Of a DNA stretch of 64,000 bases, positions 43,561 through 48,687 are shown in pieces. The first letter of the stretch is position 1, and each line of letters begins with the position of its first letter. A model generated the notes under the pieces. It worked only from the letters and a program-made list of their open reading frames with translations, ran no database searches and had not been told where the DNA came from. The translations under genes were made by a program, and so were the position numbers. Source of the stretch: Microbacterium mangrovi (GTDB lineage Bacteria; Actinomycetota; Actinomycetes; Actinomycetales; Microbacteriaceae); the NCBI RefSeq assembly GCF_000802305.1, contig NZ_JTDK01000006.1, positions 496,001-560,000 of the forward strand, written 5' to 3'.

Positions 43561-43620
43561 CCCGGTAGCCTTTCGGTCGCGGCCGACCGGTCGCATCCGG
43601 AACCTCCAGGAGGAAAACCC

Positions 43621-44046
43621 GTGCTCAAGGGCTTCAAAGAGTTCATCCTTCGCGGCAACGTCATCGACCTCGCGGTCGCCGTCGTCATCGGCGCAGCCTT
43701 CACCGCCATCGTCAACACCATCGTCAGCAGCATCATCAACCCGCTGATCGGCCTCGTCTTCAAGGCCAGCAGCCTCGACAAGGCGTTGATCTGGACGGTG
43801 CCCGCGATCGTTCCGCACACCGACCCGGCCCAGTTCAAATTCGGTGCCGTCCTTGGCGCCGTGATCACGTTCCTCGCGGTCGCGGTGGTCGTGTACTTCG
43901 TCTTCGTCCTGCCGATGAACCACATGCGCGAGCGTGCCGCCGCCCGTGCCGCGGCGGGGCTCCCCGACCCGGAGGTGCCGCCCACCGAGACCGAGCTGCT
44001 GATCGAGATCCGCGACCTCCTGGCCGCGCAGCAGCGCACCGAGTAG
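43621..44046 (+). CDS. mscL: Large-conductance mechanosensitive channel
   Basis: A 141-residue MscL protein that opens under membrane tension to release solutes in osmotic downshock. The N-terminal amphipathic KGFKEFILRGN leads into the first pore-lining helix (VIDLAVAVVIGAAFTAIV, residues 14-31). The second helix (GAVLGAVITFLAVAVVVYFVFV) follows a short periplasmic loop, and the C-terminal helix (TETELLIEIRDLLAAQ) forms the bundle. The GTG start has an AGGAGG site at 7 nt, so unlike many neighbours it has a leader. Confidence 0.96.
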   Translation: MLKGFKEFILRGNVIDLAVAVVIGAAFTAIVNTIVSSIINPLIGLVFKASSLDKALIWTVPAIVPHTDPAQFKFGAVLGAVITFLAVAVVVYFVFVLPMNHMRERAAARAAAGLPDPEVPPTETELLIEIRDLLAAQQRTE

Positions 44047-44076: not shown

Positions 44077-44271
44077 TCAGTAGTGGGGTGGGACGTCCCT
44101 CTTCATGCGCTCGTCGTTGGGTCCCGAATCGGACGAGGCGGATGCTTCGGCCCCGCGGTCTTCATCGGCCGGACGCGGCTCCCCCGTCGTGCCGGGCGCG
44201 GCCGTCAGCCGCGCGCGACGGGATCCGGCGACCTTCTCGACGTGCTGGCGCGGTGCCCGGTCAGGAGCCAT
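44077..44271 (-). CDS. Small hypothetical protein coupled to helicase-like gene
   Basis: A 64-residue basic then acidic protein beginning MAPDRAPRQHVEKVAGSRRA and ending NDERMKRDVPPHY. I do not recognise a domain; the middle is Pro/Glu/Asp-rich and probably disordered. Its ATG lies within the last codons of the helicase-like gene (11-nt overlap in another frame), suggesting translational coupling. The conserved-looking C-terminal DVPPHY is reminiscent of short uncharacterised actinobacterial proteins. Being short, it could still be a chance frame. Confidence 0.55.
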   Translation of the reverse strand: MAPDRAPRQHVEKVAGSRRARLTAAPGTTGEPRPADEDRGAEASASSDSGPNDERMKRDVPPHY

Positions 44272-47200
44272 CGCCGAAGTCCAGCGGCTGCGTCTCGGGG
44301 TCGACGACAGGCGCCTCCGGCGTGATGCCGAGCAGCGCCGCGACGCGGAGCGCGACCTGCGCCGGATCGCTGTACAGGTCGAACGCGTGGACGCGCACAT
44401 AGTGCCAGCCGAGGCGGCGCAGGATCTGGGGCCGCAGCCGCAGCGACTCGCGCAGCGACTCGCCCACGGTCTCGGGGTCGCTCTCGGCGACGACGGCCTT
44501 GCCGTCGTGCTGGGCGACCAGCGGCAGGAGTCCGCGATAGTTCACGTCGACCGAGACGCCGAGCCGGCGCAGCTCCCGGGCGAGCGCCCGGGTGAGCGGA
44601 TCGGCGAGGTCTTCGAGCCGCGCCTCGCGGGCACGGGCGGCGATTCCGCCGAGCACCGCCATGAGGGTGGCCGCGCCGTACTCCAGGCGCCCCTCGTCGA
44701 ACGCGGACGGGCGGATCGACGACACAATGACCATGGAACGACGCGCCCGGGTCATCCCGACCGTCAGCAGGCGTTCGCCGTCGGGGCTGGACAGGTCGCC
44801 GAAGTCGGTGAGCACCCGGCCGTGGCGGGTGAGGCCGAAGCCGAGAGAGAAGATGACGCGGTCGCGGCTTTCGGCGACGGCGTCTTCGAGGGTGAGGACG
44901 GCGAACGGCTCGGCCGTGTCGCGCCCCACGAAATCCGCGACGTCGGATCGTCCGGCGAAGGCCGTGCCCACCGCGGCGCGCACGCGCTCGGCGTGCTTGC
45001 GGCTGGCGGTCACCACCATCAGAGACTCGCGGCCGCGGTTGAGCGCGTGCTCCACGACGAGCGTGACGACGCGGGCCACCTCGGCATCCGGGCTCTCCAC
45101 GGCGCCGGTCTCCGGGTCGGGCACGCCCGTCCCGCCCTCGACGTAGTCGACGCCGAGGCTGCCGCGGCCGAGGTAGGAGCCCGCCCAGGGCAGCGAGACG
45201 ATCTCGCCGCCGTAGAACGCGTCGTTGACGAGTTCGGCGAGGTCCTCTCCGCCCGCGCGGTAGCTGCGGGTGAGGGTCTCGACCGGCACCAGCTCGGCGA
45301 GGCGCTCGAAGACGCTCACCTCGTCGAAGGGCTCCGTGTCGTCGGCGTCCGCCGGGACGCGCGGCGCGGGGCCGGAGGCGACCTGGAACGGCGTGGGCTT
45401 CTGCGTGACCGGATCGCCGAAGACGACCACCTGTCGCGCGCGGCGAAGCGCGGGCGCCGCCTCGGCGAGCGAGACCGCCGCGGCATCCGCGATGATCACC
45501 ACGTCGAACTCGAGCGACTCCGGGATGAGGGGCACGTCGTAGGGGGATGCGATCCACGCCGGAGCGAGCGTGCGCACCAGGTTCGGCGCCACGCTGACGA
45601 CGGCCCGCGCACTCACGGAGCCGGACGTCAGCGCCCGCTTCAGGCGGTCGGCCTCGCGCTCGTTGTCGACGATGCCGATGCGCCACTGCGTCGCCAGCCG
45701 GGCCGCCAGCAGGGGTCCGGATGCCGCGGCATGCGCCTCGTCGACGAGACGGAAGTCGCGTTCCAGCCGGTCGACGACCGACGTGTTCGCCCCGAGCAGC
45801 GCCTTGTCGGTGCGCAGCAGATGATCGAGCGCCGACTGCCACCAGGCGAACTCGAGTTCCTGCCGCACGTCGGATTCGGGAACGTGCCGCACGGAGAGTT
45901 CGAGCAGGAGCGGCTCGAGCCCCATGGCGGCCAGCTCGGCCCGCAGCGCCGCGCGCTCGACGAGGTTCTCGAAGTAGGCGGAGTCGGCCGCCAGCCCTGC
46001 GAGAGTGCGCACGAGATCCTGGACCGGGAGCGTCGCGAGGGTGCGCGGGCGGCTCAGGATGCCGTCGAGCTCGGACAGCTGGGCATCCACCCGCTGCCAC
46101 GCCACGTGCACGTCCGCCATGCCGGTGGGCACCTCCGGCGCGACGCCGGCCAGGGCGTGCTCGGCCCATTGGGCCCGCTGCAGATCGATGCGGACGAGCG
46201 CCTCGTGCATGTCGGCCACGTGCACCCCGGGGCGCACGTACTCGCGCGCCAGGCGCTTCAGCCGGCGGCGATCGCGCCCGGACATCGCGGGCGCGTCCCG
46301 CCGCGAGCCGTGCGCCTTGATGAGGTCGTCCAGCGGTCGCTCGAAGGCGACCGGAAGGAATTTGTCCAGCGAATCGCGGATGCCCTGCAGCATCCGCAGG
46401 TACACCCCGAGTTCGTCGATGCTGCGGAAGGGCCGCAGGCGTGTCTGAGCGATGAGCTCGTAGCCGCGCTCGAGCAGCGCCGGCACGTCGTGATGGTGGA
46501 GCTTTCCGGCCAGGCCGTGGGCGCTGCGGGCCTGTTCGGTCGAATCGAACGACACGCCGTACCACGCGGAATCGTCCGGACCGAACCGGAACTCCCCGAG
46601 CCGGGCCGCCGCAGCGAGTTTGTCGGCCGCGGCATCCCTCGCACCCGAGAGCCGGCGCAGCGTCTCGGCGTCGAAACGCGTGCGCGTGGGCGGCACGTCG
46701 CCCGAGGCGGTGAGTTCGGCCAGTCGGCGCACCACGTCGAGCGCCGAGACGCCGAGCGTCCGGCCGGGTTCTGCCAGCGCGCCCCGGTAGTCGCGCAGCA
46801 CGGCCCGCAGACGCACCAGCGCTTCGTCGATCTCGGCGACCTTGGGCTGCTCGGCCTTCTCGTTGCGACCGATCGCGCGGATGAAGTCGCGCCGGACGTG
46901 TCCGGGCGAGATCGCCAGACCGTCCAGGCCCACGCCCGCCAGCCGGTGACGGATGCCGTCGAGCGTCGCCCGACGGGCGCTCACGACCAGGACCCGCTTG
47001 TCGTCGGAGATCAGCGCGCCGAGCGCATTGATGACGGTCTGCGTGCCGCCGGTGCCCGGCGGGGTGTGCACGGCGATCGACTGGCCGTCGACGATGCGTG
47101 CGAGCACCGCCTCCTGCTCGGCGTCGGCGTCCAGCAGCAGGTTGTCCGAGGCCGGCGTCCGCTCGTCGGGTCCGGGGGCGGCGGGCGCGGGACGCCGCAG

Positions 47201-47968
47201 CGACAGGTGCTCGCGGTCGTCGACGTGCCCGGCCAGGGCGTTGAGGATGGGGTGGTCGAGGTCCTGGAGGTCGCGGCGCATGGTCGCGCCGACGTCCGCG
47301 AAGGTTCCCACGATCAGGCGCGGCACCACGGTGAACCCGGGGATGTGCCCGGCGAGGGCACGCAGGTAGTCGATGACCGGCTGCGGCTTGAACACGCGCC
47401 CGTCGTACGCGAGCGCGGCGATGCGCTGCCCGTCGAGCTCGACGCCGTGATGGAGCGCCAGGATGCGGACGAGCTCGGGGTTGACGGTGAACGCGCCGTT
47501 GAGCTTGACCTCGAAGTCGCGGTGGTGGCGGCGGATCGCCGTCGGCCGGAGCAGCACCGGCGCGGTGAACGTCTCGGTCTCTTCGGGCCAGGATGCCAGC
47601 CCGACGCCCAGGCGGACCGCCTCCAGTCCGCGCGCTGTCCGCAGCTCCACGTTCTTCGCGGTCAAGCGCTCCGCGGCCAGTCGTGCCGTGCGCAGCGCCA
47701 CTTCGTCGCGAAAGAGATTGGAAAGCAGCGTCGAACGGCCGGTGAGAAGCTGAGGCAGGCTCCCCGGGTGCGCTTTCGTGATCTCGATTCCGGAATCCGC
47801 GGAATCGACGAAATGCAGCAGAGTGGATGCCCCTCCGAGTTCGCTCGCCTGTTCGCGAATTCGCACCCGCTCGGCCTCCGCGACGTGCACCACCGTCACC
47901 CCCGGCTCGGCGACGCCGAGGGCGTCAGGGGTCACGTCGGGCAGGTCGTCTTCGCCGCCCGCCACGAC
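44261..47968 (-). CDS. Degenerate SF1 helicase-like protein with C-terminal nuclease-like domain
   Basis: A 1235-residue protein. Residues 290-1080 have the layout of a UPF1-like superfamily 1 helicase. The Walker A site reads PPGTGGTQT, with Gly308 in place of the essential lysine. The DEAQ box is replaced by IIADAAAVS (near residue 825). Motif III (VFGDPVTQKP), the LTRSYRAGGE segment and motif VI (VGMTRARRS) survive. The C-terminal region (about 1120-1195: VDVNYRGLLPLVA, then LRRLGWHYVRVHAFDLYSDP) resembles the REase_MTES_1575 endonuclease fold, a Pfam family named after a Microbacterium testaceum gene. I chose the GTG at 47968 because AAGGA lies 6 nt upstream. It is divergent from an Ogt-like gene. 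Confidence 0.82.
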   Translation of the reverse strand, partial: VVAGGEDDLPDVTPDALGVAEPGVTVVHVAEAERVRIREQASELGGASTLLHFVDSADSGIEITKAHPGSLPQLLTGRSTLLSNLFRDEVALRTARLAAERLTAKNVELRTARGLEAVRLGVGLASWPEETETFTAPVLLRPTAIRRHHRDFEVKLNGAFTVNPELVRILALHHGVELDGQRIAALAYDGRVFKPQPVIDYLRALAGHIPGFTVVPRLIVGTFADVGATMRRDLQDLDHPILNALAGHVDDREHLSLRRPAPAAPGPDERTPASDNLLLDADAEQEAVLARIVDGQSIAVHTPPGTGGTQTVINALGALISDDKRVLVVSARRATLDGIRHRLAGVGLDGLAISPGHVRRDFIRAIGRNEKAEQPKVAEIDEALVRLRAVLRDYRGALAEPGRTLGVSALDVVRRLAELTASGDVPPTRTRFDAETLRRLSGARDAAADKLAAAARLGEFRFGPDDSAWYGVSFDSTEQARSAHGLAGKLHHHDVPALLERGYELIAQTRLRPFRSIDELGVYLRMLQGIRDSLDKFLPVAFERPLDDLIKAHGSRRDAPAMSGRDRRRLKRLAREYVRPGVHVADMHEALVRIDLQRAQWAEHALAGVAPEVPTGMADVHVAWQRVDAQLSELDGILSRPRTLATLPVQDLVRTLAGLAADSAYFENLVERAALRAELAAMGLEPLLLELSVRHVPESDVRQELEFAWWQSALDHLLRTDKALLGANTSVVDRLERDFRLVDEAHAAASGPLLAARLATQWRIGIVDNEREADRLKRALTSGSVSARAVVSVAPNLVRTLAPAWIASPYDVPLIPESLEFDVVIIADAAAVSLAEAAPALRRARQVVVFGDPVTQKPTPFQVASGPAPRVPADADDTEPFDEVSVFERLAELVPVETLTRSYRAGGEDLAELVNDAFYGGEIVSLPWAGSYLGRGSLGVDYVEGGTGVPDPETGAVESPDAEVARVVTLVVEHALNRGRESLMVVTASRKHAERVRAAVGTAFAGRSDVADFVGRDTAEPFAVLTLEDAVAESRDRVIFSLGFGLTRHGRVLTDFGDLSSPDGERLLTVGMTRARRSMVIVSSIRPSAFDEGRLEYGAATLMAVLGGIAARAREARLEDLADPLTRALARELRRLGVSVDVNYRGLLPLVAQHDGKAVVAESDPETVGESLRESLRLRPQILRRLGWHYVRVHAFDLYSDPAQVALRVAALLGITPEAPVVDPETQPLDFGDGS

Positions 47969-48171
47969 GTTTCCTTCTGCTCGCCACACACGGTCCAGCC
48001 TAAGCGGCCGCACCTGGGACCGGCGGTATTCCTTCTCCGTGTGGCGCAGATCAATGGGACACGCACCGCATCTTCGTCCACAGGCGTGCGATTTCACGGC
48101 CTCGGGCGCATCTGTCCACAGTTGCCGATGGTCGCGCCCGTGCACCGCCGCACGCCCGCCAGGATGGACCC

Positions 48172-48687
48172 ATGAAACGCGCCGCATTCGCCATCCATCC
48201 GACCCCGGTCGGTGACGCCCTGCTGATCTTCTCCGACGCGGGCCTCGCGGCCCTCGACATCATCGACGACGGAGACGACGTCACCGCGCTCCTGCTCGGG
48301 GCGGAGAATCGCCTCGGCATGCCCGTCGAGCACGACGAACAGGCGGCCGCGGCGGTCACCACCCAGCTCGACGAGTACTTCGCGGGCGAACGACGCGACT
48401 TCGACGCGCTCCTCGATCTGACCGGCACCACCGAGTTCGGCACGCGGACCCTCGAGCAGATCACCCGCATCCCCTACGGTCAGACGGCATCGTACGGCGA
48501 GATCGCCATGCGCGCGGGCAAGCCGCGCGCGGCCCGCGCTGTCGGTTCCATCTGCGCAACCACGCCGATCTCGATCGTGGTCCCGGTGCATCGAGTCGTA
48601 CGTTCCGACGGCTCCGTGGGCCAATACGGCCGGCATCCCGAGGCGAAGGCATTCCTCCTCGACCTCGAACGCGAATCCACCGATTAG
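48172..48687 (+). CDS. Ogt/MGMT-like protein lacking the catalytic cysteine
   Basis: A 171-residue protein with the full two-domain layout of methylated-DNA-protein-cysteine methyltransferase: an N-terminal RNase H-like domain (residues 1-85) and a C-terminal DNA-binding domain with YGQTASYGEIA and the arginine finger RAVG. The active-site motif PCHRV is PVHRV, with Val139 (codon 48586-48588) instead of the alkyl-accepting cysteine. The asparagine-hinge region is also altered (ICATTP). It cannot work as a suicide methyltransferase and is better read as an alkyltransferase-like damage-recognition protein, though those usually carry Trp or Ala and lack the N-terminal domain. Confidence 0.85.
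   Translation: MKRAAFAIHPTPVGDALLIFSDAGLAALDIIDDGDDVTALLLGAENRLGMPVEHDEQAAAAVTTQLDEYFAGERRDFDALLDLTGTTEFGTRTLEQITRIPYGQTASYGEIAMRAGKPRAARAVGSICATTPISIVVPVHRVVRSDGSVGQYGRHPEAKAFLLDLERESTD

Follow-up and report, generated by a model that had tools for sequence, protein, structure and literature searches.

What becomes of a helicase-like protein once the residues that drive a helicase have gone is the question raised by a locus of Microbacterium mangrovi (Actinomycetota; Microbacteriaceae). The window, i.e., the whole stretch of DNA analyzed here, comprises 64,000 nucleotides (positions 496,001 to 560,000 of contig NZ_JTDK01000006.1, assembly GCF_000802305.1), and the gene in question lies on its minus strand and encodes a superfamily 1 (SF1) helicase-like protein of 1235 amino acids, whose closest named relatives are found in Microbacterium. 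Orthologues are labeled "AAA family ATPase" in public records, a label contradicted by the sequence. A preliminary description of this DNA reported a Gly in place of the Walker A Lys, a degenerate Walker B motif, several retained motifs, and an intact frame of 1235 residues, all of which was borne out, and proposed a non-hydrolyzing binder or scaffold. We consider that the gene probably encodes a core, near-universal pseudo-helicase/pseudo-nuclease, derived from a likely active helicase-nuclease and predicted to act as a non-catalytic nucleic-acid-binding scaffold.

Helicase motifs lost and retained

Motif positions were scored in 80 named loci (L001-L080), of which almost all are from Microbacterium, and in 145 whole-genome loci of the window's family (f1) representing 82 genera. 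The latter set combines 133 genomes, out of the 148 others that matched in the family search, with 12 from the order search; 15 matching f1 genomes lie outside it, and a few genomes occur in both sets. Loss was judged against the residues of Lys-bearing orthologues, and paired counts refer to the named and the family loci, in this order. The features of the gene, all on the minus strand, are as follows.

44261..47968, minus: open reading frame (ORF) of the putative pseudo-helicase/pseudo-nuclease, GTG start, 1235 amino acids, for which orthologues were collected
47096..47125, minus: Q-motif, DADAEQEAVL; Gln kept (80/80, 144/145)
47036..47062, minus: Walker A (motif I), PPGTGGTQT; Gly at 47045-47047, Lys in Lys-bearing orthologues
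46952..46999, minus: motif Ia, KRVLVVSARRATLDGI, mostly conserved
45566..46906, minus: long insert separating motifs Ia and II, all-helical, residues about 316-762 in the AlphaFold2 model
45470..45508, minus: Walker B (motif II), FDVVIIADAAAVS; Asp lost, Asp at the Glu position
45395..45418, minus: motif III, GDPVTQKP; Thr at the Gln position of Lys-bearing orthologues
45245..45265, minus: motif IV, SYRAGGE; Arg kept (80/80, 143/143 scorable)
44849..44887, minus: motif V, EDAVAESRDRVIF; QG lost
44735..44758, minus: motif VI, GMTRARRS; Arg kept (80/80, 135/143 scorable)
44312..44635, minus: Vsr/restriction endonuclease (REase)-like domain; Pro (44522-44524) for the first catalytic Asp, Glu (44483-44485) and Asp (44477-44479) kept

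The Walker A Lys and the Walker B Asp-Glu pair are required for hydrolysis in SF1 proteins. The Lys was found in none of the loci (0/80, 0/145), and the Walker B Asp is missing from all of them (80/80, 145/145), its Glu neighbor being replaced by Asp in 80/80 and 144/145. The first Gly of the P-loop is present throughout (80/80, 145/145). Thus, of the residues expected of an active SF1 helicase, the window's protein lacks the Walker A Lys and the Walker B Asp-Glu and keeps the motif IV and VI Arg and the Q-motif Gln. In addition to the losses already reported, the motif III Gln, the motif V QG, and the first REase Asp were also found to be gone.

In the window, codon 47045-47047 is GGC (Gly), and Gly occupies this position in 80/80 named loci, encoded by GGC (64), GGA (6), GGT (5), and GGG (5). 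Since all four Gly codons specify the same residue in all 80 other named loci, neither chance nor sequencing error accounts for it. Nine residues were recorded at the position in the 145 family loci (G 106, A 16, Y 5, L 5, V 5, S 4, I 2, T 1, R 1). GGT is therefore fixed among the named loci only; across the family, the constant feature is the absence of Lys, not GGT itself.

It could be argued that the protein is still an ATPase or helicase in which the remaining Arg residues and an Asp stand in for the canonical Lys and Asp-Glu. The Q-motif Gln, the motif IV Arg, and the Asp at the Walker B Glu position, retained as counted above, would favor such a substituted mechanism, as would the change of Lys to Arg in seven loci of family f38. 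Against it, Lys, the Walker B Asp, the motif III Gln, and the motif V QG have been lost together, and these joint losses, with nine residues at the Lys position, fit a lack of need better; we regard a surviving motor of this kind as improbable.

The C-terminal nuclease-like domain

A Vsr-like, PD-(D/E)xK fold is predicted for the C-terminus. The first acidic residue of PD-(D/E)xK nucleases is a metal ligand, and it is kept in 0/80 named loci and in 1/142 scorable family loci, while the last Asp is kept in all of them (80/80, 142/142). Hence, the idea of a scaffold presenting a functional REase domain is not supported. In the comparison with Pfam MTES_1575 (PF18741), the window's protein scored 21.1 bits over its whole length and 26.3 bits as a fragment, under the gathering score of 38.2, and the precomputed MTES_1575 domain is present in some orthologues.

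The nuclease residues were also followed in a 60-row panel of homologs. The REase Asp and the Glu/Asp are kept in 14/14 Lys-bearing rows, four of them outgroup paralogues, and in 10/46 Lys-less rows, a count that leaves out four further Lys-less rows with Glu replacing the first Asp. Nuclease residues were lost only in rows without the ATPase residues. Within f6, four of nine rows carry the full Asp-Glu-Asp set without the Lys.

These f6 rows would suit a working nuclease steered by an inactive helicase, as would the retained REase Glu/Asp and invariant last Asp and the strength of selection on the domain, which shows the lowest dN/dS (ratio of nonsynonymous to synonymous substitution rates) of the gene (0.013). 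However, the first REase Asp is lost from every named locus and from 141/142 scorable loci of the window's own family, and a cutting enzyme is accordingly hard to reconcile with this protein and has little probability in our judgment.

Reading frame and selection

The frame at 44261-47968 is uninterrupted in the window, and in 80/80 named and 143/145 family loci the open frame spans >90% of the aligned length, the two exceptions being stretches fetched only in part. An alternative ATG start at 48187 would give 1308 amino acids and would overlap the divergent Ogt-like gene beginning at 48172. A plus-strand frame of 1356 codons (44105-48175) runs antisense to the whole gene; antisense frames of this kind were grouped into an ORF cluster in 15 of the 21 stretches compared, in keeping with the high GC content, and because the homology found sits on the minus frame, the plus frame was taken as a high-GC shadow.

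Rates were estimated from 17 close Microbacterium pairs, out of the 25 closest listed, whose members are partly shared. The whole-gene median dN/dS was 0.033 (maximum 0.048), with values of 0.032 for the N-terminus, 0.025 for the first RecA part, 0.031 for the insert, and 0.020 for the second RecA domain. The gene is under strong purifying selection, and its motifs have been lost in a conserved and selected protein, a pattern expected of a pseudohelicase. The disappearance of several catalytic motifs would also be seen in a pseudogene or decaying gene, a reading contradicted by the open frames, the low dN/dS, and a Gly held through four synonymous codons; we give it almost no credence, and the fixed loss likewise excludes a recent pseudogene or an assembly error. 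Together with the absence of Lys, the intact frame and purifying selection make a non-hydrolyzing role the best inference for the protein.

Lysine-bearing relatives and repeated loss

No orthologue with the Lys occurs among the 80 and 145 loci, and intact motifs were found in other families: relatives carrying GKS or GKT, DEAS, and QG occur in f5, f18, f45, and f36. The box expected at Walker B was DEAQ; the Asp-Glu pair has indeed been lost, but the nearest intact relatives carry DEAS. The L208 protein of f18 is a 100% match to a Knoellia locipacati protein.

A tree was built from 60 rows that we chose, with motif columns removed and the root placed on large paralogues; it is a quick tree with support from the Shimodaira-Hasegawa-like approximate likelihood ratio test (SH-aLRT) only, and 22 rows have unusual composition. 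On this tree the ancestor had Lys, and the best topology calls for four changes, which the starred branches force. A single loss was rejected by the approximately unbiased (AU) test (p-AU 0.002). The tree and the AU results, including the one weighed in the last section, put the number of Lys losses at three or more, with four on the best tree. Two f18 loci, L197 and L210, have lost the Lys on their own inside an otherwise Lys-bearing group, which makes them useful for comparison within it.

Outside the order, seven f38 loci (L224-L228, L232, L234) have GRT for GKT, and L233 has GTT; the first REase Asp is gone in 5/5 f38 rows checked (L224, L225, L228, L232, L233). The f38 change of Lys is possibly an independent loss.

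Distribution and genomic neighborhood

A match was found in 149/150 genomes of the family, the window's own included, in 137/137 high-quality genomes, and in 85/85 genera. Of the 25 listed family genomes of ≤2.0 Mb, 24 carry the gene, down to 0.9 Mb. Any homolog at E ≤ 0.001 was recorded in 243/248 genomes of the order and a match in 99/296 genomes of the class; beyond the order and f38, most of the class matches are partial and to larger paralogues. The window's genome carries a single copy; a same-genome paralogue supplying the missing activity was considered, and the only match at E ≤ 0.001 was the gene itself. Two neighbors in the window are relevant here.

43561..44043, plus: mscL ORF, a neighbor common to orthologues of several families
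48172..48687, plus: Ogt/MGMT-like gene, PVHR for the catalytic PCHR; divergent, genus-level neighbor

In Microbacterium the neighborhood is constant across 81 loci, which include short contigs and the window's own locus: Ogt-like gene (80/81), 5-formyltetrahydrofolate cyclo-ligase (5-FCL, 80/81), Gcn5-related N-acetyltransferase (GNAT, 77/81), and nucleoside triphosphate (NTP) transferase (76/81), the last presumably galU-like. Among 20 longer stretches (6 from f1, 14 from other families), mscL lies close to the gene in 11, including Lys-keeping copies in one stretch of f5 and three of f18, and was not seen in those of f6, f2, and f12; mscL is thus a neighbor of some relatives on the same tree branch that keep GKS/DEAS. 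A gene of cluster c8, which we take to be HNH-endonuclease-like from its sequence, lies near the orthologue in four f1 stretches and at least about 5 kb away in two f7 stretches (all six being L244, L246, L247, L248, L253, and L254).

The Ogt-like neighbor has itself lost its catalytic Cys, replaced in 80/80 loci where the gene was found (79 others and the window's) by Val in 74 and by Ala in 6. The residue at that position is Trp in known alkyltransferase-like proteins. Two further Ogt-like copies in the window's genome carry PCHR. A functional pair of the helicase relative and the Cys-less Ogt was set aside, the association being limited to the genus: the surrounding 1.5 kb or so showed no Ogt in L083-L110 and L121-L140 (outside the genus) or in L120 (same genus). 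Given its absence beside those loci, the Cys-less Ogt is treated as a separate observation.

Comparison with known systems

The highest-scoring curated defense and NCBI library matches were antiphage_ProA (NF058533, 293 bits), PADLOC PDC-S37 (295 bits), and Hhe (NF042953, 156 bits), which might suggest an anti-phage effector akin to ProA, Hhe, or PDC-S37 that is either inactivated or works through binding. These scores are far under the NCBIfam cut-offs of 1500 bits for ProA and 2000 bits for Hhe, and even two Lys-bearing orthologues fall short (ProA 815 and 780 bits; Hhe 547 and 561 bits). The protein also differs in length (about 1235 amino acids against profiles of 1550-1911), in the loss of its catalytic motifs, and in being near-universal across the family where defense genes are patchy. 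Rather than patchy, mobile, and set in a defense island, the gene is single-copy, syntenic in Microbacterium between housekeeping genes, and present in small genomes. The suggestion of a repurposed defense effector thus finds little footing, and we rate an anti-phage role as unlikely.

The architecture resembles that of DUF4011/MTES_1575 helicase-REase proteins, with SF1 RecA domains, a long insert, and an MTES_1575-like C-terminus in the same order, preceded by a DUF4011-like N-terminus (weak in the window's protein, over the cut-off in five relatives). The Knoellia-type L208 protein groups with other full-length orthologues on the tree, and three other f18 stretches have mscL near the gene, as at the window's locus. 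L208 exceeds the cut-offs for DUF4011, AAA_11, AAA_12, and MTES_1575 and differs in that its GKS, DEAS, QG, and REase Asp-Glu-Asp are all intact. The architecture of the Microbacterium testaceum protein after which MTES_1575 was named is different: that protein has 2161 residues or more and includes HEPN, transglutaminase, and winged helix-turn-helix (wHTH) parts (PMC3710099). In Pseudomonas aeruginosa, a DUF4011 gene is likewise reported as core, present in every isolate (PMC10250203). Among the matches listed in the open-licence PubMed Central (PMC) literature, no paper on the present protein was found.

An Upf1/IGHMBP2-like SF1B fold, with two RecA domains in an Upf1-like arrangement, is predicted. 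UPF1, IGHMBP2, SETX, Aquarius, and Dna2 differ in being eukaryotic and ATP-hydrolyzing and are not known to have a C-terminal Vsr-like domain. HelD also appeared in the fold search, and a factor of the HelD type, or another one associated with RNA polymerase or the ribosome, would use the fold for protein contacts, its helical insert reaching into a partner machine and nucleic acid being secondary. However, HelD ranked under UPF1, IGHMBP2, and Dna2, its 269-275 aligned residues are the RecA part common to SF1 proteins, and two Lys-bearing orthologues exceed the Pfam cut-offs for AAA_11, AAA_12, and MTES_1575; such a factor appears doubtful, if somewhat less so than a defense role.

Two cases of inactivated helicases offer the nearest working models by analogy, and membership in neither type is claimed. 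PriA, an SF2 protein, is in Deinococcus radiodurans likewise a core bacterial helicase whose motifs were lost in the lineage while the protein was retained; it differs in fold and partners, and in that ATPase loss and DNA binding were measured there. D. radiodurans PriA, a pseudohelicase, is reported to have no ATPase or unwinding activity and to keep DNA binding, with evidence for contact with DnaB (PMC4504706). AddB and RecC share an SF1 fold without most catalytic motifs that serves as a nucleic-acid scanner, their inactivated helicase domains recognizing Chi (PMC4824097). They differ as UvrD-like subunits within a motor complex, whereas the window's protein is predicted to be Upf1-like SF1B; they were not prominent in the fold search (AddAB chain 4cej_A at rank 41), which excludes nothing.

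Proposed role and implications

From the residues lost and kept, we propose that a likely active helicase-nuclease ancestor shed the residues normally needed for ATP hydrolysis and DNA cutting, the protein being retained. The window's protein would then neither hydrolyze ATP, and so not translocate, nor cut DNA; its helicase cleft and dead REase domain may still grip nucleic acid. The kept Q-motif Gln, on the base side, and the Arg contacts may make this grip depend on a bound nucleotide or on a partner, and catalysis, if any, would come from a partner.

Several observations weigh against this proposal. Both Arg and the Q-motif Gln are kept, and 144/145 family loci carry Asp at the Walker B Glu position, so that some weak or unusual use of ATP may persist. 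The highest dN/dS of the gene falls in the Walker B part (0.063, maximum 0.182), indicating some relaxation, and the motif VI Arg is gone in 8/143 family loci, i.e., erosion has not been arrested everywhere. Foldseek alone returned zero matches for the C-terminal fragment at E ≤ 0.001. If the two f18 losses are granted, one loss for the remainder is not rejected (p-AU 0.268). Finally, a nearly complete family genome (G124) has a weak match only, and G094 (82% complete) is the sole family genome of the 150 without a match.

That motor residues were lost repeatedly and the protein was nonetheless retained, down to genomes of 0.9-1.4 Mb, suggests a second, ATP-independent job in the ancestor, one kept by selection. 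More tentatively, and as a possibility that we would put short of an even chance, the gene may represent an undescribed actinobacterial core genome-maintenance factor that shed its ATPase independently at least three times and whose actual task is to recognize a nucleic-acid structure without ATP; it would scan in the manner of AddB/RecC but apart from the resection complexes known so far, and nucleotide binding would serve to switch it. The occurrence of Lys-bearing and Lys-less orthologues side by side makes the idea of a second job directly testable, and matches to DUF4011/MTES_1575 helicases should not automatically be taken as defense systems.

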